NCBI RefSeq assembly: GCF_003315135.1
Contig: NZ_QNRK01000004.1
Location: forward strand, 120,740 to 184,739
Source: Roseiarcus fermentans
GTDB taxonomy: Bacteria; Pseudomonadota; Alphaproteobacteria; Rhizobiales; Beijerinckiaceae
DNA length: 64,000 nt
Reading direction: 5' to 3'
Below, in pieces: positions 10,727 through 41,312 of this stretch. The translations under genes and the position numbers were made by a program. Within the stretch, counting starts at the first letter, position 1; each line of letters opens with the position of its first letter. The notes below the pieces were generated by a model. It was not told the origin of the DNA. It did not search any database and worked only from the letters and a program-made list of their open reading frames with translations.

Positions 10727-11230
10727 ATGGGCCTGTTCACCAAAGACATCGAGACCATCGACGACCTGTTCGCCCATCAGCTGCAGGATATCTACTACGC
10801 AGAGAAAAGAATCGTCGCGGCGCTTCCGGAGATGATCCAGAAGTCGACGACGCCCGAGTTGCGCGAGGCGTTCGAATCGCATCTTCAGGAGACGAAGAAT
10901 CAGATCCTCCGGCTGGAAGAGGTCTTCCGGCTGAACGGAACCGAGCCGAAGGCCGTGGACTGCCCGGCGATCGACGGCATCATCGAGGAGGCCGACGAGG
11001 TCGCCGGCGAGGTGGCCGACAAGGCCGTGCTCGACGCCGCCCTGCTCGCGGCCGGCCAGTCGGTGGAGCATTACGAGATCGCCCGCTACGGGACGCTGAT
11101 CGCCTGGGCGAAGGAGCTCGGAAAGGACGACTGCGCGAGTCTGCTGGCGGAGACCCTGACGGAAGAGGTGGCGGCCGACAAGAAGCTGACCGCGATCGCC
11201 GAGCAGGGCGTCAACCGCGCCGCCGCCTGA
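10727..11230 (+). CDS. YciE/YciF-type ferritin-like protein (DUF892)
   Basis: A 167-residue, mostly helical acidic protein. MGLFTKDIETIDDLFAHQL and the following DIYYAEKRIVAALPEM are typical of the DUF892 (PF05974) ferritin-like family, whose members form dimeric four-helix bundles with Glu/His metal ligands and are often induced by stress. Matching ligand candidates are visible (E28 in YYAEKRI, E48 and H51 in FESHLQE, and VEHYEI late in the protein). The ATG at 10727 is preceded by an AGGAG at a good distance, so the longer reading frame from 10688 is not used. A strong terminator follows 22 bp after the stop. Confidence 0.9.
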   Translation: MGLFTKDIETIDDLFAHQLQDIYYAEKRIVAALPEMIQKSTTPELREAFESHLQETKNQILRLEEVFRLNGTEPKAVDCPAIDGIIEEADEVAGEVADKAVLDAALLAAGQSVEHYEIARYGTLIAWAKELGKDDCASLLAETLTEEVAADKKLTAIAEQGVNRAAA

Positions 11231-11252
11231 GGGTGAAAACGGCGAACGGAAG

Positions 11253-11281
11253 GGGCGGCCGGACCGAGGCCGCCCTTTTTT
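11253..11281 (+). terminator. Rho-independent terminator after the ferritin-like gene
   Basis: GGGCGGCC (11253-11260) pairs perfectly with GGCCGCCC (11268-11275) around a 7-nt loop, followed by six T residues. Confidence 0.92.
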
Positions 11282-11299
11282 CCAAGCAAAGTCAAAAAA

Positions 11300-12601
11300 C
11301 TAGATCCAGCTCTTGAACCAGAGTCGCGCGGCCAGGGACGCCGGCGTGACGCCGATGCCGCCGGCGTACACCGGCAGAAAGAAGGCGAACGCCGCCGCCG
11401 CCCCGATGAGAACCGCCGCCGCGACCACGCGGCGTCGCCGGTCCTCTCCCTGGAAGATCCCGAGCGCCAGCGCCGGGCCGAAGGCGAGGGTCGCGGGAAA
11501 GTAATAGTAGAAGAACTCGAGCCCCTTGGGATCGAGCGCCCACGGCAGGAACTGGGAGAAGAACGCCACCGTCACGATCAGGCCGTCGCGGTCGCGAAAT
11601 CGCAGCCAGCGCGTCAACGCCAGCACGACGGCGGCCTCGCCGAGGACCAGGACGACCGGATTGACGAGGGCGACGATCGCCGACGCCGGCGCGTCCGGAC
11701 CCCAGTTCGGCCCGCGCAGCGCAAAGCTGTACCAGACCGGCCGGCCCATCCAGAGCCAGGTGAACCAGCGGCTCGCGTAAGGGTGCGACGGAGACGAACC
11801 GCTCATGATGTCGCGCATGCGTTCGTGGGACGCGACAAATTCATAAAGATCGCCGGCGCGCACGATCTGCGGCAGATAGGCGACGAAATACGCAGCCAGC
11901 GGAACCGCGATGAAGGCTGCGACCGCGACCGACGGCGACATTCCGGGCCAGGCCGCCTCGGAAAAGAAGTCCGACGGCTTCGGGTCTGAGAATCGGACCC
12001 CCCATGTCCGCAAGAGGCCGATGAGGAGGTAGACGGAGGCGAGCCCGAACAGCAGAAAGAAGCCCGACCACTTGCAGGCGCCGGCGAGGCCGAGGCTCAC
12101 GCCCATCGCGAGCGCGAAGGCGATCGACCGGCTGCGGCTCGTCGCCTTGATGCTGAAGGTGAAGAACGCGAGCGCCAGCGCGCAGAACGCCATGAGAAAG
12201 ATGTCGAGCGTGGCGATGCGCGCCTGAACGAAGACGGCGCCGGCGAAAAACGTCAGGGCCGCCGCCCAGAGCGCGCGCCCGATCTTTCCGGTGAGCCCGA
12301 ATCCCCAGAAGAAGACGGCCGTGACGGTCGCGGCGCCGAAGGCCGCGCTCATTGCGCGCCATCCCGTCGGATTGTCGCCGGCGAGCCACATGCCCAAGGC
12401 GATCAGGAGCTTGCCGAGCGGGGGATGCTCCTGATGCCCCATCGCCGCGCCAGCCAGCCAATCGCGCGCCGTCGGGACGTACCATGTCTCGTCGAACGTC
12501 AGGGTCGCCGGGTCGCCGATATCCGGGAGGAACGCCGCCAGCGAGAGAAGGAACACCGCGGCGGCCGCCGCCGCGAGCCGTTTCCATTGCGTCAATTTCA
12601 T
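11300..12601 (-). CDS. PMT-family (dolichyl-phosphate-mannose type) membrane glycosyltransferase
   Basis: A 433-residue polytopic membrane protein of the GT-C superfamily. The first extracytoplasmic loop has the Asp37-Glu38 pair in LTFDETWYVPTA and a GHQEHPPLGKLLIALG motif, both hallmarks of protein O-mannosyltransferases, which use polyprenyl-phosphate-linked sugar. About ten hydrophobic segments follow. The natural acceptor could be a secreted protein or a glycolipid. I placed the start at ATG 12601 where the signal-anchor helix begins; the open frame upstream is arginine-rich and unlike the family, although no strong ribosome-binding site is visible. The gene is isolated and divergent from the autotransporter gene 400 bp away. 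Confidence 0.85.
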   Translation of the reverse strand: MKLTQWKRLAAAAAAVFLLSLAAFLPDIGDPATLTFDETWYVPTARDWLAGAAMGHQEHPPLGKLLIALGMWLAGDNPTGWRAMSAAFGAATVTAVFFWGFGLTGKIGRALWAAALTFFAGAVFVQARIATLDIFLMAFCALALAFFTFSIKATSRSRSIAFALAMGVSLGLAGACKWSGFFLLFGLASVYLLIGLLRTWGVRFSDPKPSDFFSEAAWPGMSPSVAVAAFIAVPLAAYFVAYLPQIVRAGDLYEFVASHERMRDIMSGSSPSHPYASRWFTWLWMGRPVWYSFALRGPNWGPDAPASAIVALVNPVVLVLGEAAVVLALTRWLRFRDRDGLIVTVAFFSQFLPWALDPKGLEFFYYYFPATLAFGPALALGIFQGEDRRRRVVAAAVLIGAAAAFAFFLPVYAGGIGVTPASLAARLWFKSWI

Positions 12602-13003
12602 ATCGGGCTGCGACCGCTTTCGCCGAGGGAACCGGGTTCTACACGCAGACCGACGGGTCGGCCACCGCGCCCCCGATTCGCCGGGAAGGCCCGGATCCGG
12701 CTCGAAGAACCCTGTCGTCACACCGTCGCGCAGTCGCTTGCGTCAGCGTTCGTTCCCCTCTACAGGTGAGCCATGAGCTTAAGTCGGCCGTTGACGTGCG
12801 AATCGGAGCGGGGAAGCGCTCGAGGCGAGCGGACAACGAGCGAAGGCGATTCCTCGGGGCGCGGCGGCGGCGCTCCGCGACCCCTTCGGCCGAAAACCGC
12901 AGCTGCCGGGTCGACCTTCGCGCCGACGGGGAAGGCCCCGCGCATCGAGTTGGCCGCTGAGGGAAGGCGGCGTTCGGCGCGTGCTTGGTTTTAGGGGAAG
13001 AGC
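12602..13003. other. Intergenic region with no gene seen
   Basis: About 400 bp between divergent genes. Open frames here are arginine/proline-rich and lack ribosome-binding sites. AGGGGAAG just before 13004 is the ribosome-binding site of the autotransporter gene. No clear promoter, repeat or RNA gene was found. Confidence 0.4.
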
Positions 13004-14770
13004 GTGAAAAGACTGGCAATAGCGATCGCCGTGCTCTGGGCGGCCGTAGTGGGCGCGCACGCGGAAGTGAAAGGCACGATGGGCTTTGCCGACATCGGCA
13101 AGCCGCTGGCCGACGGCTCGCCGAACGGCAACATCAACACCGCCACGACATTCACGATCGGTGAACTGTACTCGACGACGTCGGGAACAGGCTTTCTCAC
13201 CGGCATGCCCCACCAGAACCTCGGCTCCGTCACGTTCTCGACGACCTCGGGAACCAGCATGACATTCGGCAACAGCGTCTTCGGGACATTTTCCAGTCTG
13301 GATATCTATCGAGCGGCGGACGAGACCCCCGGTCACGTCGGGTTTTACGTTCTTGGATTGTGGTCTCCCGGCTCCTACGGCGGCATCCCCGCCGGCTCTT
13401 ACGACGCGAGCTTCACGGTCTCGTTCAACCAGAATCCGCCCAGCACGGGGTCGATCGCCGATTCGGGAACGTTCTCGATTCCACCGGCGATTCCGACCCC
13501 GACGCCCACCCCGACCCCGACGCCCACCCCGACCCCCACGCCGACCCCGACGCCGACCCCCACGCCGACGCCGACCCCCACGCCGACTCCGACTCCCGCC
13601 CCGACGTCCCCGCCGCTCCCGAGTTTTCGCCCCGAGGTTCCGGTGTATGTGGCCATGCCGGAGCTTGCCAACATCGTCGGCTTCGCCATGATCGACAACT
13701 TCGATCAGCGCATGCTCGGCGCCCAGGAGCCGCCGTCCGCCGAGCCCTCGCCCACGCTCTGCCTGCCGACCAAGAAATCCGACGCGACCGTCGCGTTGCC
13801 GACCAGGAAGCCGCCCGTGAATTGCGTCTCCCCGGCGGAGTTCGACGCCGCCAGACGGGAAGCGATGGAGCGGCAGATGGAAGCCGTGCGCAAGCGCTTG
13901 TTCTGGGCTCGGGCGATCGGCCTCGCCGGCGATCAGAAGCAGGGCCCGGTCGGGTATTCCTCGAGCAATCCGTTCCTCAACGGCCAGGGTCCCAACTTCA
14001 GCTATGCGCTCGGCGGGTTCGAGGCCGGAATGACGCCCTGGTCGAATGTCGCGCGTGACGGATCGGTCGACAGCGCCGGCGGCTACGTCGGCTATTCCAT
14101 CGCCAACGCCAGCGTGAACTCGGTTTACACGGGGTCGAAGGCCGGCGACGTCTCGATCGACGCCTATTCGCTCGGCGCCTACTGGACCCATGTCGGCGCC
14201 CAGGGCTGGTATGTCGACGCCGTCCTGCAAGGGACCTGGTATGGACAGGTGCAGGGCTCGGCCTTCACCGGCCTCAGCGTCGGCGGCGCCGGGTTCGCGG
14301 CTTCCGTCACCGGCGGGCAGCCGCTGCGCTGGGGGCCCTCCTGGCTGATCGAACCCCAGGCCCAGTTGATCTATCAGGGCGTGCAGCTCGGGTCGGGGAC
14401 AGACCTGTTTGGAACGACGAGTTTCGAACGGACGAACGACCTGCGGGGTCGGCTCGGGATCAAGGCGTCCTATCTGCCATGGAGAGGCGGGGAGCTGGCC
14501 GCGTACGCGGTGACGCTGTGGGCGCGCGCGAGCGTCTGGCACGACTTCGTCCTGAACGCTCCCGCGGCGACTTTCCTGGACTTCGGCGCCTACAATCCGG
14601 TCACCATCGACGGCGCGCTCCAGGGGACCTGGGGCGAACTCGATCTCGGCGCGGACGCCAACGTCAGCCCAACGGTGAATCTCGCCGCCTCCGTCTTCCT
14701 GTATCGATCGATAGACGGCGCCTCCTCGTCGGCGATCGGCGGGCGTCTGAGCGCCAAAGTCGAGTTCTGA
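13004..14770 (+). CDS. Autotransporter with short passenger domain and Pro-Thr stalk
   Basis: A 588-residue type Va secretion protein. Residues 1-20 are a signal peptide ending in AHA. Residues 22-160 form the passenger, homologous to the PEPxxWA protein 600 bp downstream. Residues 164-199 are an almost pure Pro-Thr repeat forming a stalk. Residues 206-245 ([19 protein letters not shown]) match the junction sequence typical of pertactin-like autotransporters. From about residue 308 to the end is a beta-barrel with alternating aromatic strands and a final Phe. Start is GTG at 13004, preceded by AGGGGAAG. The passenger has no recognised enzymatic motif. It is expected in the outer membrane with the small domain displayed at the surface. 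Confidence 0.85.
13493..13600 (+). repeat. Hexanucleotide tandem repeat encoding the Pro-Thr stalk
   Basis: Eighteen Pro-Thr dipeptides (the last Pro-Ala) are encoded by alternating CCG/CCC and ACC/ACG codons. The repeat is imperfect at third positions but constant in the 6-bp period, so copy number may vary between strains and change stalk length without shifting the frame. Confidence 0.85.
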
Positions 14771-18891: not shown

Positions 18892-19150
18892 CGACACTCC
18901 TTATGGCCTTTGGTAAGGTCTGCGACGGGCAGGCGCGCCTAGGATGAGGGCGCGCCCGCATCGGGCTGGGGCGGGGGGATCGACGAGGCGGGCGCCTTGC
19001 CGTACCGGTTGCCGGCCGCGCGGTTTATGGACTTGCCGGTGTCGAAAGGAAAGTCCAAGGACAAGTGTGAGAATGGCGCCGGGCCTCGAGGGCCCGAGCC
19101 GCGTAACGGGGGCTGGCCGCCGCATCGGCGCCATGGTTTTGAGGCTCGAG

Positions 19151-19489
19151 ATGTCAAACCCAAGAACCGGCCGCGAGCCGGGAAAGACCGTGACCCGCGC
19201 CGACCTGTCCGAAATCGTCTACCAGCGCGTCGGGCTGTCGCGCACCGAGTCGGCCGAACTGGTTCAGTCGGTGCTGGACGAGATCTGCGATGCGGCAGTG
19301 CGGGGAGAGACGGTGAAGCTCAGCGGGTTCGGCTCGTTCGTCGTCCGCTCGAAGGGCGAGCGCATCGGGCGTAATCCCAAGACCGGCGTGGAGGTGCCGA
19401 TCCTCCCGCGCCGGGTGATGGTGTTCAAGCCGTCGAACGTCCTGAAGGCCAAGATCAACGGCAAGGCCGACGACGACGCTCGCGATTAG
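19151..19489 (+). CDS. ihfA: Integration host factor subunit alpha
   Basis: A 112-residue DNA-bending protein of the HU/IHF family. It shows [18 protein letters not shown], the [11 protein letters not shown] beta region and the [12 protein letters not shown] arm with the intercalating proline, which are IHF-alpha features. It pairs with IHF-beta (not in the window) in recombination, replication and promoter architecture. ATG 19151 has GAGG 7 nt upstream. The gene is followed by a MerR regulator and tRNA-Pro, an order I recall as usual in Rhizobiales. Confidence 0.95.
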
Positions 19490-19581
19490 GCGCGTCTGGC
19501 GTTCGGTCGCTGGGCGGACGATAGTAGCCGGACGGGCAAGGACGATTCGGCCTGCTCCAACCGCTGTCCGCGAGCGACGAG

Positions 19582-20103
19582 ATGGAGAAGAGCCCAGAGG
19601 CCTTTCGAACGATCAGCGAAGTCGCCGACACCATCGACCTGCCGCAGCACGTGCTGCGGTTCTGGGAGACGCGATTTCCGCAGATCCGCCCGCTGAAGCG
19701 CGCCGGGGGCCGGCGCTATTACCGGCCCGACGACGTCGAGCGGCTCCGCCTGATCAAGCGCCTGCTGTACGACGAGGGCTATACGATCAAGGGCGTCCAG
19801 AAACTGTTCAAGGAGCAGGGCGTGCAGGCTTTGACCAGCGCAACCACGGAGCCGCGCCTCCTGTCCCAGCCGTCCGAACCGGCCGCGCGGGCGCAGGCCG
19901 CGCGCGAGCCGGATCCGGGGCTCGCGGCGGGTCCGCGGCCGGACCCGGCGGCCCCGCCGGAATCCGTGGCGCCGCCAGTCGCGACGCGGGCCTTCGATCC
20001 CGGCGAGATCGCGGCGCTCCGGGGGGCGCTGGCCGAGATCGTCGAGGCGGCCCGCGCCCTGCGACTCGCGCGATCGGGACAAGCCGGGGACCAGACCGGC
20101 TAA
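19582..20103 (+). CDS. MerR family transcriptional regulator
   Basis: A 173-residue protein with an N-terminal winged helix MerR domain (residues 8-78): [25 protein letters not shown] followed by [19 protein letters not shown]. The C-terminal half is Pro/Ala/Arg-rich with a short helix at the end and no recognised effector domain. It is the gene usually found downstream of ihfA in this group; its regulon is unknown. The next feature is tRNA-Pro 45 bp downstream. Confidence 0.9.
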
Positions 20104-20148
20104 GAACGGATTGCCAGCGGCGGCGAGCCTGCCTATAAGAGCAGCCGT

Positions 20149-20226
20149 CGGGGCGTAGCGCAGCCCGGTTAGCGCACCTGTCTGGGGGACAGGGGGTCGG
20201 AGGTTCGAGTCCTCTCGCCCCGACCA
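20149..20226 (+). tRNA. tRNA-Pro (GGG anticodon)
   Basis: A complete cloverleaf: acceptor CGGGGCG (20149-20155) pairs with CGCCCCG (20216-20222), followed by A and an encoded CCA. The anticodon loop CTGGGGG between CCTGT and ACAGG gives anticodon GGG, reading CCC/CCU. The T-loop TTCGAGT is intact. Although tRNA genes are common attachment sites, no integrase or 3' tRNA fragment is seen nearby. Confidence 0.97.
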
Positions 20227-20866: not shown

Positions 20867-21520
20867 ATGAGAGTCGTCCTGATGATCGCCGCGCTGCTCC
20901 TGCTGGCGACGGCGGCCGCCGCCCCGGCGATCGACCTCGAGCCGGTCCGCCAGCAACTGGCGCAATGGGGGCTCGCCGACCTCGCGCCGGTGCGGCAATA
21001 TTTGCCGCAGGCCACGCTGGGGCTGGCCGCGCTGGTCTTCCTCATGTCGGTGGTCGCGCTGTTCCCGCGCCGGACCCCGGCCGCGCCCGCCGCCGAACCC
21101 GCGCCGACCGCGCCGGAACCGCCGCGGGCGAGCGTCGAGGCCGAGATCGTGCACTTCCTCGCGATGTTGCAGGAGAAGGGCCGGCTGGTCGATTTCCTGA
21201 TGGACGACATCAACGCCTACGGCGACGCCCAGGTCGGGGCGGCGTCCCGGGTCGTTCACGCCGGATGCAAGGATGTGCTCACGGAGCATTTCTCGATCCG
21301 GCCCGTCCGCTCCGAGGCGGAGGGATCGAAGGTTCAGGTGCCGCCCGGCTATTCGGCCGACGAATACCGGCTGGTCGGCAAGATCGCGGGGTCGGCGCCG
21401 TTCTCCGGCGTGCTCGTCCACCGCGGCTGGAAGACCGACACGGTGAAGCTGCCGCTGCTGCTGCGCGGCCCCGACGACCCGCTGCCCGCGATCGCGCCGG
21501 CGGAGGTGGAAGTGAAATGA
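20867..21520 (+). CDS. DUF2760 membrane protein, first gene of the Hsp70 module
   Basis: A 217-residue protein. Residues 1-20 are a hydrophobic segment and residues 50-68 (ATLGLAALVFLMSVVALF) a second one, followed by a Pro/Ala linker and a DUF2760-type domain (residues ~90-217) with VEAEIVHFLAMLQEKGRLVD, VVHAGCKDVL and LVHRGWKTDTVKLP blocks. DUF2760 proteins have no assigned biochemical role but are often encoded next to atypical Hsp70s, as here. GGAGGGG stands 7-8 nt before ATG 20867. The topology suggests a membrane-tethered partner for the two following Hsp70s; that is an inference. Confidence 0.8.
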   Translation: MRVVLMIAALLLLATAAAAPAIDLEPVRQQLAQWGLADLAPVRQYLPQATLGLAALVFLMSVVALFPRRTPAAPAAEPAPTAPEPPRASVEAEIVHFLAMLQEKGRLVDFLMDDINAYGDAQVGAASRVVHAGCKDVLTEHFSIRPVRSEAEGSKVQVPPGYSADEYRLVGKIAGSAPFSGVLVHRGWKTDTVKLPLLLRGPDDPLPAIAPAEVEVK

Positions 21521-21587
21521 AGGGTTCGCCGGCGCGCCGCCGCGGCGCGCCGGCCGTTGCGGCCCAACCCCTGCGAGGACTCCATCG

Positions 21588-23423
21588 ATGACCGCTCGCT
21601 TCAGTCTCGGGATCGACCTCGGCACCAGCAACAGCGCCATGGCGCTGACCGAACTCGACGCCGACCGACCGGAGATCGTGCCGGTGTTGCAGGTCCTGGC
21701 CCCGGCCGAACTCGGCGAAAAGCCGACCATGGCCTCGGCGCTCTACTTGCCGCATCCCGAGGAATTCCGGCCGGACGCGTTCGCGCTGCCGTGGGGGCAG
21801 GGCGAAGCGTTGCGGATCGTCGGCCAGTTCGCCCGCGATCACGGCGCGCTCGTCCCCGATCGCCTGGTGACGTCGGCCAAGTCGTGGCTGTCCAACCCGC
21901 ACATCGATCCGAGGCAGCGCACGCTGCCGTGGAAGTCCGAGAGCGCGGAAGACAAGCTGTCGCCGTTCGAGTGCTCGCGCCTCTATCTCGAACACCTCAA
22001 GGGCGCCTTCCTCCACGCGGCGCGGGCGAGCGGGCGGGACTGGGACATCGGCGACGGCCAGATCGTCGTGACGGTGCCTGCTTCGTTCGACGACGTCGCG
22101 CGCAATCTGACGGCGGAAGCGGCCGAGGCCGCCGGGCTCGGTCAGGTTACGCTGCTCGAGGAGCCGCAGGCGGCGTTCTACGCCTGGGCCGCGCGGGCCG
22201 GGCGGCAATGGCGCGACGCGGTCGCGCCGGGCGACGTGATCCTGGTCTGCGACGTCGGCGGCGGCACCGCCGATTTCAGCCTGATCGCCGTCACCGACGT
22301 CGACGGCGCCCTCGAACTCGAACGCATCAGCGTCGGTGAGCACATCCTGCTCGGCGGCGACAACATGGATCTGGCGCTCGCCTACGCCCTGCGGGCGGGC
22401 CTCGAGGCGGAAGGCAAGGCGCTCGACGGCTGGCAGTTCCTCGCGCTGGTCCACGCCGCGGCGCGGGCGAAGATCGCCCTGTTCGAGGATGCGGCGCTCA
22501 GCGAGGCGCCGATCGCGATTCCCTCGCGCGGCGCGAGCCTGTTCGCCAAGACGATCTCGACCGCGCTTCCGCGCGCGCTGCTGTCGCAGATCGTGATCGA
22601 CGGGTTCTTCGCCATGACGACGCTCGACGACCTGCCGCAGGAGGGGCGGCGCGCCGGGCTTCAGGAATTCGGGCTGCCCTACGCGTCCGATCCGGTGATC
22701 AGCAAGCATCTGGCGCGCTTCCTCGGCCGCAGCCTGCAGAACGTGCGCGCGAGCGACAAGCTCGCGGCGCTGGTCGGACCGCGCGCCTCCGGGACGGCGC
22801 TGCTGCCGACCGCGGTGCTGTTCAACGGCGGCGTGTTCAAGGCCGAGCCGATCCGCGCCCGGGTGCTGGAGCTGCTGGCGTCGTGGAACGGCGGCGCCCC
22901 GGTCCGGGCGCTCGAAGGCTTCGAGCCCGATCTCGCGGTGGCGCAAGGGGCGGCCGTCTACGGCCGGCGCCGCGCCACGGGGCAGGGCATGCGCATCAAG
23001 GCGGGCGCCGCGCGCTCGTACTATGTCGGGCTGGAGACGTCGATGCCGGCCATTCCCGGCTTCCGGCCGCCGGTCAAGGCGCTGTGCGTGGTGCCGCAGG
23101 GCATGCAGGAGGGGACCGAGCAGCTGATCGAGGGCCGCACCTTCGGCCTGGTGACGGGGGAAACCGCCGAGTTCCGCTTCTTCTCGTCGGCGGTGCGCAG
23201 CGGCGACGCGCCGGGCGAAATCCTGCCCGACGCCGAGCGCGAGCTGGAGGAGACGGCGTTGCTGGAAGTCGAGCTTCCGGCGCTCGCCGACGTTCCGGCG
23301 GGGCAGGTGGTCCCGGTGCGGATCGAGGCGATCGTCACCGAACTCGGAACGCTCGAACTCTGGATGAAGCACGCGAACTCGGACCGCAAGTGGAAGATCG
23401 AGTTTCAGGTGCGCACGCAGTAG
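21588..23423 (+). CDS. Atypical Hsp70-family chaperone (first of pair)
   Basis: A 611-residue Hsp70 homologue. The nucleotide-binding domain is intact: phosphate-1 GIDLGTSNSAMAL, the lysine of SAKSWL (Lys98, position of the DnaK catalytic Lys), phosphate-2 CDVGGGTADFSL (221-232), and VLFNGGVFK as the adenosine motif. The last ~120 residues look like a beta-sandwich substrate-binding domain (PVRIEAIVTELGTLELW) but there is no helical lid or C-terminal EEVD-type tail, so it differs from DnaK. It starts 67 bp after the DUF2760 gene with a GAGGA ribosome-binding site. No DnaJ or GrpE gene lies nearby. Confidence 0.9.
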   Translation: MTARFSLGIDLGTSNSAMALTELDADRPEIVPVLQVLAPAELGEKPTMASALYLPHPEEFRPDAFALPWGQGEALRIVGQFARDHGALVPDRLVTSAKSWLSNPHIDPRQRTLPWKSESAEDKLSPFECSRLYLEHLKGAFLHAARASGRDWDIGDGQIVVTVPASFDDVARNLTAEAAEAAGLGQVTLLEEPQAAFYAWAARAGRQWRDAVAPGDVILVCDVGGGTADFSLIAVTDVDGALELERISVGEHILLGGDNMDLALAYALRAGLEAEGKALDGWQFLALVHAAARAKIALFEDAALSEAPIAIPSRGASLFAKTISTALPRALLSQIVIDGFFAMTTLDDLPQEGRRAGLQEFGLPYASDPVISKHLARFLGRSLQNVRASDKLAALVGPRASGTALLPTAVLFNGGVFKAEPIRARVLELLASWNGGAPVRALEGFEPDLAVAQGAAVYGRRRATGQGMRIKAGAARSYYVGLETSMPAIPGFRPPVKALCVVPQGMQEGTEQLIEGRTFGLVTGETAEFRFFSSAVRSGDAPGEILPDAERELEETALLEVELPALADVPAGQVVPVRIEAIVTELGTLELWMKHANSDRKWKIEFQVRTQ

Positions 23424-23795
23424 ACTGAGCCTCGCGCTCGAGACACGGCGTCGCTATAGGCGCGGTCGCCGGCCAGGCATTATTACACCGGCGGGCGCGG
23501 TGCGCCTCCTCCCCCCTTGTGGGGGAGGAACGAGGAGGGGGGTCGGGCCATGCCTATCCGTTGGGCGCGCAAGGGAACTTCCCAAGCTCGGCGTGACCCC
23601 CCACCCTGTCCCGCCCCCACAAGAGCCTGCGCCCGGGCGCGCGCAAGCGCGACCCGGGTGGGGGCCGGGACGTCGCTCGCCGCTCGGAGTTTGGCCGGCA
23701 AAGAGATGTGTGCATCCCTCGGGCAGCTGACTGCGCGGCCACGCTCCATGCGGCGCTGGCGCTCGCGCTCGAACGAACCCGGTTGACGAAAAGCC
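23424..23795. other. Intergenic spacer with a palindromic G/C-tract element
   Basis: 372 bp between the two Hsp70 genes, holding no gene. It contains a hairpin at 23507-23529 (TCCTCCCCC paired with GGGGGAGGA around CTTGT) and further homopolymer-rich tracts to about 23660 (GACCCCCCACCCTG, GCCCGGGCGCGCGC). The composition is that of dispersed palindromic intergenic repeats; a second copy is not present in this window. Confidence 0.5.
23507..23529. repeat. Palindromic hairpin between the Hsp70 genes
   Basis: A 9-bp perfect stem of TCCTCCCCC and GGGGGAGGA with a 5-nt loop. No T-tract follows on either strand, so it is not a standard terminator; it may be a REP-like element or an mRNA-stability hairpin. 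Confidence 0.6.
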
Positions 23796-26636
23796 ATGGC
23801 GGCCCGGTTTTCCATCGGCATCGATCTCGGCACGACGAATTCGGCGCTCGCCTTCGTCGCGCTCGACGGCGACGCGCGTCCCGAGGCGCTGCTCGTCCCG
23901 CAGCTGGAAACCCCGGTTTCGCTCGGCGAGGCGACGACGCTGCCGTCGTTTCTCTATCTGCCCGAGGACGCGGGCGATGCGGCCACCCCGGGCGCGGACT
24001 TCGACACCGACGAATGGATCGTCGGCCGCCTCGCCCGCCGCCGCGCTGGGGAAACGCCTGGACGGGTGGCGCGATCGGCGAAGTCGTGGCTCTGCCACCA
24101 TTCGGCCGACCGGACCGCGCCGATCCTGCCCTGGGGATCGGAAGACCTGAGCCCCTCGCAAAAAATCTCGCCGGTCGGCGCCTCCGCGCTCGTGCTGGCG
24201 CATCTGCGCGCCGCCTGGAACAGCCGCTTCGCGCGCCAGGGCTTTCCGTTCGACGCGCAGGACATCGCCATCACCGTGCCCGCCTCGTTCGACGCCGCCG
24301 CGCAGCGCCTGACGCTGGACGCGGCGCAGGAGGCCGGCTTTCCGCCGGCCCTGCGGCTGCTCGAGGAGCCGCAGGCGGCCTTCTACTGCTGGCTCGAAGC
24401 CCACGACGCCGGCGGGGCGCCCTGGGGGGACGCGAGCGCCGCCGAACCGCGCCACATCCTGATCGTCGACATCGGCGGCGGCACCTCGGACTTCAGCCTG
24501 TTCGAGACCCGCGCGGGCGCGGCGGGCGCCACGCCCGAGATCAAGCGGGTCGCCGTCAGCGACCACATCCTGCTCGGCGGCGACAACATGGATCTGGCGC
24601 TCGCGGCGCTGGTCGAGCCGCGGCTGGCGGCGGGACGCGGCGGCCTGTCCGGCCCGCAATGGGATCATCTCGTCGCCTCGTGCCGCGACATCAAGGAGCT
24701 GGCGCTCGCCGGCGACGGTTCGGCGCCGGAGCATTACGTGGTGGCGCTGCCGGGCAGGGGCTCCGGCCTGATCGGCGGCGCGCAGGCGACGACGGTCCAG
24801 CGCGACGAGGTCGAGCGCATGGCGTTGGACGGCTTCTTCCCGGAATGCGACGCGCGCGCAAAGCCCTGGCGGACGCAATCGGGCTTACGCGACTGGGGGC
24901 TCCCCTACGCCGCCGACAGCGCGATCACCCGCCACCTCGCCGATTTTCTGGCGGATCGCCCGCGCGTCGACGCCGTGCTGTTCAACGGCGGCGCGCTGCA
25001 CGCCGGCGTCTTGCGCCAGCGGCTCCTCGACCAGATCGCGGCCTGGCAGGAGGGCGTCCGCCCGGTCGAACTGTTCAACGCCGAGCCCGACCTCGCGGTC
25101 GCGCGCGGCGCCGCCCGGTTCGGCAAGCTCCTGCACGCGCGCTCCGGCCGGATCGCGGCGGGGGCGGCGCGAGCGGTGTTTCTCGCCGCCGAGACGGCGG
25201 CTGCGGGCGAGCGGCCGGCGCTGATCTGCGTTCTGCCCCTCGGCGCAGCGGCCGAGCAGGGCTTCGCCATCGACCTGCCCGGCCTCGAGCTCCGGACCGG
25301 CCGGCCGGTCAGTTTTCAGGCCTGGTCCTCGACCCGCCACGGCGACAGCCGGCCGGGCGACGTCGTCCCCTGGGACCCGGACGCCTTCCAGGCGCTGCCG
25401 GAGCTTCAGACGCGCGTCGAAACGGGGCAGGGCGCCGACGCCGGGCCGGAGCGGACCGTCCCGGTCCGGCTGGCGGCGAAGATCAACGCGCTCGGCCTCC
25501 TGCAGATCGCCTGCGTGGGTACGGACCCGCGCGCCCCCGGTTCGTGGCCGCTGGAATTCAACCTGCGCGCCCACGAGACCGGCGGGCGCGGCGCGAGGGC
25601 CGCCGAGGCGGTCGCGCCGAACGCTACGCCCGAGGCGCAGCAGGCCGTGCGGGAGCAGATCGCCGCCCTGTTCGCCCCGCCGCCGCCGAAGGCCGGGCCG
25701 AAGCCGGGGGGCAAGGCGGGCGGCAGGCCGGGGGCGAAAATGTCCGGCTTCAGGCCCGTCGACAAGTCCGCCGGCCCGAGCGCCAATGCGGCGCTGAAGA
25801 CGATGGAGCGCGTGGTCGGCGCGCCGCGGCACGAATGGAACGCGGCGCTGCTGCGCGGCCTGTGGCCGGCCCTCGACGATGCGACCGCCGGCCGCAAGCA
25901 TTCCGTCGAGCATGAGGAGGCCTGGCTCGGTCTCGCCGGATTCCTGCTGCGCCCGGGGTTCGGCTATCCCGGCGACGCTGAGCGCATGGACGCGCTGTGG
26001 CGCCTGCGGGAGACGGGGCTCGCCTTTCCCGGCAAGCGCAGCAAGGTGCAGGAGGCGATCCTGTGGCGGCGCGTCGCCGGCGGCCTGACGGCGGAGCGGC
26101 AGGACCTGTTGCTGGCGGCCGACCTCGCGACGCTCGCCGCCGGCAAGGCGTCGCCGGAACTGGTCCGCCTCGCGGGCTCGCTCGAACGCCTGCCGCGCGA
26201 GACTAAGACGGAGCTGATCGAGCTTTTCCTTGCGCAGGCGATCCGGCTGATCGAGGGCCGGCAGCATTGCGCGCCGCACCTGTCCGCGCTGGGCCTGCTG
26301 CTCAACCGGACGCCGCTCTACGCGGGACCGGAGAGCGTGGTCGCGCCCGAGCTCGTCGAACGCGCCTTCGCCGCGCTGCAGCCGTTCGACTGGTCGGCCG
26401 GCGACCTGACCGAGTGCTGCACGTTGTTCCTGAGGGCCGCGCGAGTCGTGGACGATCGAAACCTGGACGTCCCGAGGGGAATGCGCGACCGGATCGCTCG
26501 CAAGCTCGAAGGCGCGGGCGTCACGCCGTTGCGCGCCGCCACGATCCGGGCGTTCACGCCCGGACGCGCCGACCGCGCGGCGCTGTACGGCGAGCCGCTT
26601 CCGCCCGGCCTGGTGCTCGGCGGCGACCTCGGCTGA
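23796..26636 (+). CDS. Large atypical Hsp70 with C-terminal DUF3731-like extension
   Basis: A 946-residue protein. Residues 1-~480 are an Hsp70 nucleotide-binding domain with GIDLGTTNSALAF, the SAKSWL lysine, VDIGGGTSDFSLF and VLFNGGALH. A beta-rich segment follows (PVRLAAKINALGLLQI), then a Pro/Lys/Gly linker near residues 625-660. The last ~290 residues are helical (ERVVGAPRHEWNAALLRGLWPAL, EEAWLGLAGFLLRPGFGYP, RRVAGGLTAERQDLLL) and match my recollection of the DUF3731 region fused to such Hsp70s. Function unknown. It follows the first Hsp70 in the same direction after 372 bp and lacks a strong ribosome-binding site. Confidence 0.88.
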   Translation: MAARFSIGIDLGTTNSALAFVALDGDARPEALLVPQLETPVSLGEATTLPSFLYLPEDAGDAATPGADFDTDEWIVGRLARRRAGETPGRVARSAKSWLCHHSADRTAPILPWGSEDLSPSQKISPVGASALVLAHLRAAWNSRFARQGFPFDAQDIAITVPASFDAAAQRLTLDAAQEAGFPPALRLLEEPQAAFYCWLEAHDAGGAPWGDASAAEPRHILIVDIGGGTSDFSLFETRAGAAGATPEIKRVAVSDHILLGGDNMDLALAALVEPRLAAGRGGLSGPQWDHLVASCRDIKELALAGDGSAPEHYVVALPGRGSGLIGGAQATTVQRDEVERMALDGFFPECDARAKPWRTQSGLRDWGLPYAADSAITRHLADFLADRPRVDAVLFNGGALHAGVLRQRLLDQIAAWQEGVRPVELFNAEPDLAVARGAARFGKLLHARSGRIAAGAARAVFLAAETAAAGERPALICVLPLGAAAEQGFAIDLPGLELRTGRPVSFQAWSSTRHGDSRPGDVVPWDPDAFQALPELQTRVETGQGADAGPERTVPVRLAAKINALGLLQIACVGTDPRAPGSWPLEFNLRAHETGGRGARAAEAVAPNATPEAQQAVREQIAALFAPPPPKAGPKPGGKAGGRPGAKMSGFRPVDKSAGPSANAALKTMERVVGAPRHEWNAALLRGLWPALDDATAGRKHSVEHEEAWLGLAGFLLRPGFGYPGDAERMDALWRLRETGLAFPGKRSKVQEAILWRRVAGGLTAERQDLLLAADLATLAAGKASPELVRLAGSLERLPRETKTELIELFLAQAIRLIEGRQHCAPHLSALGLLLNRTPLYAGPESVVAPELVERAFAALQPFDWSAGDLTECCTLFLRAARVVDDRNLDVPRGMRDRIARKLEGAGVTPLRAATIRAFTPGRADRAALYGEPLPPGLVLGGDLG

Positions 26637-40046: not shown

Positions 40047-41312
40047 ATGGTTCCGGTCGCCGTGGGCGTGGATTTCGGCACCACCAATTCCGTCGTCGCG
40101 ATCGCCGACCGGTCCGGCCGGATCGAGGTCCGCCGGTTCGAGACGCAGGCCGGGGCGGTGGAAGCCTATCGCTCGGCGCTGCTGTTCTACCGCGAGGGGC
40201 GGCCGCCGAATGCGACGCTCGCGCACATCTCCGGGCCCGACGCGCTCCTGCGCGCCATGGACATCGACGCCGACCACAGGTTTCTGCAATCGTTGAAGAC
40301 CCACCTGTCGAGCGCGACGTTGCAAGACACCTATCTGCTCGGCCAGCGGTTTGTGCTCGAGGAGCTGATCGGCGTCTTTCTCTCGGACGTCTTTCCCGAA
40401 GGCCTCGGCGACCTGCCGGTCGTCTGCGGCCGACCGGTGGTGTTCGCCGGCGATCGGCCGAACGAAGGTCTGGCGCTGGAGCGGCTGACCGCCGCCTGGG
40501 GACGCGCCGGCGTGACGCAAGTCGATTTCGCCTACGAGCCGCTCGGCGCCGCCTACTGGTACGCGCGCACGATCCAGCGGCCGGAAACCGTGCTGGTGGC
40601 CGATTTCGGCGGCGGCACCAGCGACTTCTCGGTCATGCGCTTCGAGCCGGGGGGCGCCCGCGCGCGCGCCGAGGCGCTGGCGCACGCCGGCGTCGGCGTG
40701 GCCGGCGACACCTTCGATTTCCGCATCGTCGACAATCTGGTGTCGCCCCGGCTCGGCAAAGGGGCGCATTACCGCTCGTTCGGCAAGCTCCTGCCGTTGC
40801 CGGCGCGCTACCACGCCGCCTTCGCGCAATGGCACAGGCTGTCGCTGCTCAAGGACCCGCGCACGCTGACCGAACTGCGCCGGCTGGCGAAACAGGCCGA
40901 GCGGCCGGCGGAGATCGAGGACCTCGTCCATCTGATCGAAATGGATCTCGGCTACGAGCTCTATCTCGCCGTCTCCAGGGCCAAAGTGCGCCTCTCCACG
41001 GCCGAGCGGACGACGTTTCACTTCAAGGCGGGTGATCTCGACATCGCCGCCGAGGTCACCCGTGCGGACTTCGAGCGCTGGATCGCCGCCGACGTCGCGC
41101 GCATCGGCGACGCGATCGACCTCGCCCTCGAACGCGCCGGCGTGGCGGTCGGGGCGGTCGACTCCGTCTTCATGACGGGCGGCACGTCCTACGTGCCCGC
41201 GGTGCGGACGCTGTTCGAACAGCGCTTCGGCCGCGAGCGGCTGCGCTACGGCGACGCCTTCAATTCGGTCGCGAGCGGCCTTGCGGCGATCGCCGCCGAC
41301 AGCCTCGGATAG
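40047..41312 (+). CDS. YegD-like Hsp70-family protein (nucleotide-binding domain only)
   Basis: A 421-residue actin-fold ATPase. GVDFGTTNSVVAI is phosphate-1, VADFGGGTSDFSV phosphate-2 and VFMTGGTSYVPAVR the adenosine motif. The protein ends about where the Hsp70 ATPase domain ends, so it has no substrate-binding domain, as in E. coli YegD. Its role is unknown. GAGG lies ~11 nt before ATG 40047. It is the third atypical Hsp70 homologue in the window, 13 kb from the DUF2760-associated pair. Confidence 0.9.
   Translation: MVPVAVGVDFGTTNSVVAIADRSGRIEVRRFETQAGAVEAYRSALLFYREGRPPNATLAHISGPDALLRAMDIDADHRFLQSLKTHLSSATLQDTYLLGQRFVLEELIGVFLSDVFPEGLGDLPVVCGRPVVFAGDRPNEGLALERLTAAWGRAGVTQVDFAYEPLGAAYWYARTIQRPETVLVADFGGGTSDFSVMRFEPGGARARAEALAHAGVGVAGDTFDFRIVDNLVSPRLGKGAHYRSFGKLLPLPARYHAAFAQWHRLSLLKDPRTLTELRRLAKQAERPAEIEDLVHLIEMDLGYELYLAVSRAKVRLSTAERTTFHFKAGDLDIAAEVTRADFERWIAADVARIGDAIDLALERAGVAVGAVDSVFMTGGTSYVPAVRTLFEQRFGRERLRYGDAFNSVASGLAAIAADSLG

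Follow-up and report, generated by a model that had tools for sequence, protein, structure and literature searches.

The stretch of DNA analysed here, to which we refer as the window, comprises 64,000 nucleotides from Roseiarcus fermentans (contig NZ_QNRK01000004.1, positions 120,740 to 184,739 of the forward strand) and contains a cassette of three genes encoding a DUF2760 protein and two divergent Hsp70 proteins, A and B, the latter ending in a DUF3731 region (Table 1). All three frames are open, intact and located on one strand, and against a curated cut-off of 25 bits the family matches score 149 bits for PF10816 on the DUF2760 protein and 153 bits for PF12531 on B, where the profile is covered end to end. 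The gap between A and B is probably due to the interspersed repeat that lies within it. An earlier note on this DNA had proposed that the three products form one membrane-tethered chaperone system, with a partner of its own in place of J-protein and GrpE, and had named conserved gene order as a check of this idea.

Table 1. Features of the DUF2760-Hsp70 cassette, with positions given in the window.
Feature	Position	Strand	Evidence
DUF2760 protein, 217 aa	20867-21520	+	PF10816 6e-44 on 20867-21517; hydropathy; predicted structure
Hsp70 A, 611 aa	21588-23423	+	PF00012 2.2e-19; residue map; alignment to B
Hsp70 B, 946 aa, DUF3731 at C-terminus	23796-26636	+	PF00012 3.6e-14; PF12531 1.9e-44 (residues 703-941); model; Foldseek
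GC-rich interspersed repeat in the 372-bp A/B gap	23490-23690	+	33 matches in own genome, counting the repeat itself and some places read on both strands

The strongest evidence that these genes belong together comes from their distribution. Among 398 genomes of Pseudomonadota, the phylum of the window, DUF2760 (PF10816) was detected in 28 and DUF3731 (PF12531) in 27, all of them within the 28. The single DUF2760 genome without DUF3731 (G026) has a contig that stops 81 bases past A, and one of the 27 (G053) carries DUF2760 and A on one contig and B on another, split over two frames. Wherever the trio was present on one contig among the fetched Pseudomonadota loci (25 of 25), the order was DUF2760-A-B on a single strand. 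A scan of named genomes yielded at least 524 relatives among 588 stretches; the top 80 were retained as named loci, and 66 of them hold the complete trio, with A-B gaps of up to 1.6 kb, ten lack B, and four have DUF2760 alone. A contig end explains seven of the ten cases without B. For the other three and the four with DUF2760 alone, whole genomes were searched, and B was found elsewhere in all seven and A in six, three of the six being the copies already beside DUF2760. When the first start codon of each frame is taken, a 4-bp overlap between DUF2760 and A is seen in 42 of 76 loci. A conserved fourth gene was sought in 29 stretches including the window with a greedy gene caller and rejected: only the trio extends beyond two genome families, and one cluster of this analysis (cluster 2) consisted of antisense frames of trio genes.

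In a second sample, 240 genomes of Verrucomicrobiota, the phylum of an Opitutales metagenome-assembled genome (MAG; G487), both DUF2760 and a model of A (E 1e-60) were detected in 39 genomes, and the two sets are identical. DUF3731/B was found in the same 39 and in one further genome (G616, 40/240), where the DUF3731 match comprises 100 residues with an internal stop. The trio is confined to 8 kb in 18 of the 39 carriers and is not fully linked in 21, with only A and B together in four, only DUF2760 and A in seven, only DUF2760 and B in one, and no linkage at all in nine. Some of these splits are presumably contig breaks; in one genome (G572), however, the trio is spread over a single contig at distances of 0.26 to 2.1 Mb, and in another (G699) DUF2760 is 0.9 Mb away from A-B. 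Gene order is thus conserved in the phylum of the window and in 66 of the 80 named loci and in less than half of the carriers in the second phylum, where co-occurrence is nevertheless complete. Hypergeometric values (5e-41 and 3e-44) ignore relatedness and serve as a guide only. As the trio is present together even where its genes are dispersed, joint function rather than hitch-hiking is indicated, and the proposal that the three proteins constitute one system is strongly supported, including where the genes are unlinked. The coupling of the trio therefore goes beyond synteny: it is kept or lost as a set in the two sampled phyla.

For comparisons of sequence, near-copies were removed at 80% identity, as were partial rows for A and B, leaving 58 of 79 DUF2760, 40 of 69 A and 46 of 63 B sequences; 49, 38 and 37 of these, together with the window, entered the sets A2, A4 and A3, respectively. 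Residue counts given below refer to all kept rows of A and B with the window added (41 A, 47 B). In a tree of 18 A and 18 B sequences, hand-picked for spread, against four canonical rows (E. coli DnaK, HscA and HscC, and the DnaK of the genome itself; both YegD rows and one locus, L109, were omitted), A and B form one group apart from DnaK, HscA and HscC with a support of 100/100, and A is monophyletic at 96/86. A and B are most likely paralogues of old common origin. The order of lineages is largely parallel between the two subtrees, as expected if the pair was inherited together. The nearest relatives of the window's A are found in a Rhodopila MAG (76%) and in Methylocella, followed by Verrucomicrobiota. 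As DUF2760 is present in only two of 11 genomes of the same genus and in none of 89 other relatives, horizontal acquisition of the cassette is probable here. Directly upstream, at 18944-20226 of the window, lie an HU/IHF-family gene, a MerR-family gene and a tRNA-Pro, and the tRNA adjoining an acquired cassette may mark the insertion site.

Both Hsp70s have retained every catalytic residue checked. D8, T11, K70, E171, D194, T199 and D201 (DnaK numbering) show no variation among the 41 A and 47 B sequences, and the SAKSWL motif, whose lysine the earlier note had singled out along with the other ATPase motifs, is present in both proteins. A aligns over its full length to residues 1-593 of B with 39% identity and consists of a nucleotide-binding domain (NBD) and, by this alignment, a beta-domain at about 476-611. 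In B, the NBD (1-450) and a domain resembling the beta-subdomain of the DnaK substrate-binding domain (SBDbeta; 460-590) are followed by the helical DUF3731 region (helices 663-931), and its predicted structure, with a predicted local distance difference test score (pLDDT) of 84, shows the NBD, the beta-domain and an all-helical DUF3731 region. The DnaK lid is missing, as had been claimed: A stops at the end of the beta-domain, and B bears DUF3731 in the place of the lid. The C-terminal extension of B had likewise been recognized correctly as helical and DUF3731-like; B continues past the end of A for about 350 residues (594-946), somewhat more than the 290 given there. The EEVD tail, the lack of which had also been listed, is a feature of eukaryotic cytosolic Hsp70s, so that its absence is uninformative here. 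In Foldseek comparisons, the B model reaches TMt values of 0.70-0.73 with lid-truncated entries of DnaK and BiP in an ATP-like docked form and of 0.50-0.55 with undocked entries, the labels of these entries being in part our own. By sequence, the search for kin of DUF3731 among solved structures returned one match (E 0.049), which we took as chance.

The site at which J-proteins act on Hsp70s has fared differently from the catalytic site. The HPD motif of the J-domain is described as acting on a network of Arg167, Asp393 and Asp481 in DnaK (PMC7289447). Arg167 is found in none of the 41 A sequences, Asp393 in none of the 88 A and B sequences and Asp481 in none of 86 (two have gaps), mainly Leu or Val taking its place, while E. 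coli HscA retains all three residues and HscC two. Asn170 is replaced by Glu and Val218 by Arg in 88 of 88 sequences, both at positions that we take to be on the J-docking face; the Glu corresponds to E191 of A and E190 of B, the Arg to R246 of A and R251 of B. Altogether, 17 positions of the NBD and one of the linker carry a residue common to A and B (at least 95%) and absent from DnaK, HscA and HscC, and in almost every A and B sequence the VLLLD linker has given way to a polar stretch of the form I-x-x-G. Most of the J-switch has thus been lost.

Matches to J-protein and GrpE are also absent from the neighbourhood, in agreement with the earlier note: the five J-domain matches of the genome and its single GrpE all lie outside the window, and phmmer searches of 2423 frames from 29 stretches, the window's surroundings among them, with the J-domain of E. 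coli DnaJ and with GrpE as queries found nothing. The GrpE query was of modest power and recovered 14 of 31 known GrpEs, itself included, so that distant GrpEs could escape it. The same search over 7130 frames of the 80 named loci returned a single J-like frame and a single GrpE-like frame, which share one locus of a Methyloprofundus MAG (L128). There, a weak match to the B model (63 bits), a GrpE and a J-domain frame stand side by side on the minus strand at 10769-13525, perhaps as a separate, more ordinary Hsp70 set. As a further observation, four genomes of one genus, g98 (G018, G026, G030 and G053), all with DUF2760, have a second divergent GrpE, and so do some genomes without the trio.

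The third component is predicted to be a two-helix membrane protein, in agreement with the earlier note. Hydrophobic helices at residues 4-22 and 49-67 are followed by a Pro/Ala-rich linker and the DUF2760 domain (93-215), which is modelled as three helices and then seven strands (pLDDT 96-98 over 101-190 and 74-94 beyond; predicted template modelling score 0.55). By eye, Arg residues flank the helix pair, ahead of the first and behind the second, which suggests that the domain is cytosolic. Comparison with the PDB gave no match to the domain at E <=0.001 by fold, the best match by profile having an E of 0.39. A kinship to GrpE, considered for C-terminal motifs that look alike by eye, was rejected, since hhalign probabilities were 0.7% and 0.4%, in a test weakened by some rows of the GrpE alignment overrunning the E. 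coli end; nor was GrpE among the best 50 of 59 fold matches in the PDB. A J-domain can likewise be dismissed: HPD occurs, at any position, in one of 58 rows, and the model has helices followed by strands, not the four-helix J fold. The idea that a partner specific to this system replaces J-protein and GrpE thus agrees with the loss of most J-switch residues, but the candidate partner resembles neither of the two. Among the neighbours of DUF2760, two Opitutales MAGs (L119, 4895-6716; L138, 9683-12523) have the gene without adjacent A or B; the next gene downstream resembles by eye BCCT (betaine/choline) transporters and is possibly a client or a chance neighbour. In another family (f65: L079, 5128-7110; L080, 5404-7314), a gene of the same direction stands just before DUF2760; the L079 copy encodes an ABC protein that has two ATPase domains and an ABC C-terminal domain (ABC-F/Uup-like), with which the L080 copy clusters.

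Our safest statement is that DUF2760, A and B are three parts of one machine. Beyond this, we favour, with a probability of roughly 0.55, an obligate three-part, J-independent machine of two Hsp70s, with DUF2760 as a dedicated and often membrane-bound cofactor. A and B would work as a pair of lidless, ATPase-intact paralogues, the helical DUF3731 region of B being placed where DnaK has its lid. The cytosolic domain of DUF2760 would contact the Hsp70s in a physical complex, and its N-terminus, as an integral or amphipathic anchor, would recruit them to the inner membrane, the presumed place of action. ATP binding would dock the beta-domain onto the NBD, as in DnaK, and contact between A and B together with DUF2760, in place of a J-domain, would trigger hydrolysis and release; any handling of clients is likewise presumed. 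The trigger site would probably be the altered J-docking face, with its invariant Glu and Arg at DnaK positions 170 and 218. Only tentatively do we consider a more specific form, in which B would serve A as an exchange factor or regulator in the manner of Hsp110, and DUF2760, an orphan fold, would both take the J role and anchor the pair, in several phyla and without any J-protein or GrpE. The textbook Hsp70 scheme consists of J-protein, Hsp70 and exchange factor. If true, our reading would offer a natural experiment on which steps of the Hsp70 cycle are dispensable, in a pair that keeps catalysis, sheds most of the J-switch and has one and the same third protein at its side in almost all genomes examined, and it would assign a function to two DUF families that occur in several phyla.

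Several points weigh against this reading. Joint retention shows joint function, not contact. One Opitutales genome (G486) has DUF2760 and B without A, perhaps a gap in the MAG, and the support for a single B group in the tree is 24/0. Profile comparison with DnaK aligns A and B over the NBD only; the kinship of the beta-domain to SBDbeta is supported by the predicted structure of B and by Foldseek, and for A by way of its alignment to B, and the docked state of the B model may be a preference of AlphaFold. Membrane contact is likely and not uniform, given that the N-termini vary around the domain as the constant part: among the 58 DUF2760 sequences, 19 have two predicted transmembrane helices, 17 have one and 22 lack any. 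A membrane tether therefore agrees with the window and 36 of 58 relatives, the other 22 having no predicted transmembrane helix; in 21 of these 22, no more than 5% of shuffled sequences equal the best N-terminal amphipathic stretch, which often reads F-x-x-R-x-x-x-A-x-x-x-F-F. Finally, Arg167 is kept in 35 of 47 B sequences, so B may still make some use of J-proteins, and the J-like and GrpE-like frames of the Methyloprofundus locus lie about 2.4-3 kb beyond B, on the opposite strand.

The last two points would also fit client-specific Hsp70s that borrow housekeeping J-proteins and GrpE, such as those encoded elsewhere in this genome, with DUF2760 serving merely as tether, substrate adaptor or client. 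We regard this as unlikely: the absence of Asp393 and the change of Asn170 to Glu in all 88 sequences, the lack of Arg167 in every A and the near-universal replacement of VLLLD all speak against it, as do the phmmer searches, in spite of their modest power, in which a single one of the 80 named loci stood out.

It is also improbable, in our view, that A and B are non-chaperone ATPase switches of the actin/Hsp70 fold that sense or regulate at the membrane, their beta-domains binding each other or DUF2760 instead of unfolded clients. The lack of a lid for client trapping and the distance from DnaK in the tree would fit such a role; the SBDbeta-like domain, predicted as docked in B, and the retention in both paralogues of each ATPase residue checked argue against it. 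Regulation in Vibrio cholerae could be read in favour of a switch and is the sole physiological hint to what the machine does. In the open-licence literature, we found no mention of DUF2760, DUF3731, PF10816, PF12531, 'DNA-K related protein' or 'bacterial Hsp110', and in its accessible portions 'DnaK-related protein' appears by name only, as table rows or in a gene list. VC1373-1375, presumably the trio, are listed as an operon in which VC1374, 'DnaK-related', is repressed in biofilms (one hit; PMC9201469), and the quorum regulator HapR is reported to activate the VC1375 promoter in vivo and in vitro (PMC10328515). A table on the riboflavin response also includes VC1373 (PMC5816637), and one on polymyxin B includes VC1374 (PMC5636140). 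VC1376, adjoining VC1375, is described as a diguanylate cyclase (PMC12456836); a cluster homologous to it lies beside DUF2760 in eight of nine loci of one family (f53), with CHASE-GGDEF in the one copy examined, and is divergent from DUF2760 in three of five named Vibrio loci. An anti-phage or mobile-element defence cassette, to which the patchy distribution (2/11 and 0/89) and a weak match to PADLOC model PDC-M61B (B, 1.1e-4; A, 0.025) might point, is very improbable, as these matches span 54 (B) and 20 (A) residues of the ATPase domain, DUF2760 has none, and the flanking genes shared by most of the nine f53 loci and the dispersed retention elsewhere are unlike defence islands.

Compared with known systems, A and B share with DnaK, HscA and HscC the NBD and its ATPase residues and, in the B model, an SBDbeta-like domain in the docked arrangement of the ATP state, but they differ in lacking the lid, the VLLLD linker and most of the J-switch, and they form a separate group. 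YegD is likewise a divergent bacterial Hsp70; with 450 aa in E. coli, however, it is too short for a beta-domain, and it groups with no A or B row in a tree that holds one faulty row, the genome's own DnaK read in a wrong frame. Apart from the trio, the genome encodes one ordinary DnaK and, at 40047-41312 of the window, an Hsp70-family protein of 421 aa (PF00012 7e-21, two matches in one frame), which joins E. coli YegD with a support of 97/97 in that same tree. The Hsp110-Hsp70 pair likewise combines a simpler Hsp70 with a paralogue that is extended at its C-terminus, as B is relative to A. To our knowledge, however, Hsp110 contains no DUF3731, and the B model reaches TMt values of 0.52-0.55 against Sse1 entries, which carry a lid, so that the scores are not directly comparable. 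In the fungal Ssb-Ssz1-Zuo1 triad, ATP-bound Ssb is described as heterodimerizing with Ssz1, and Zuo1 as a ribosomal J-domain protein (PMC8476630). While nothing ties DUF2760 to J-domains or ribosomes, this triad too combines two unlike Hsp70s with one tethering cofactor and, as an analogue only, would be the nearest known arrangement to the one proposed here.

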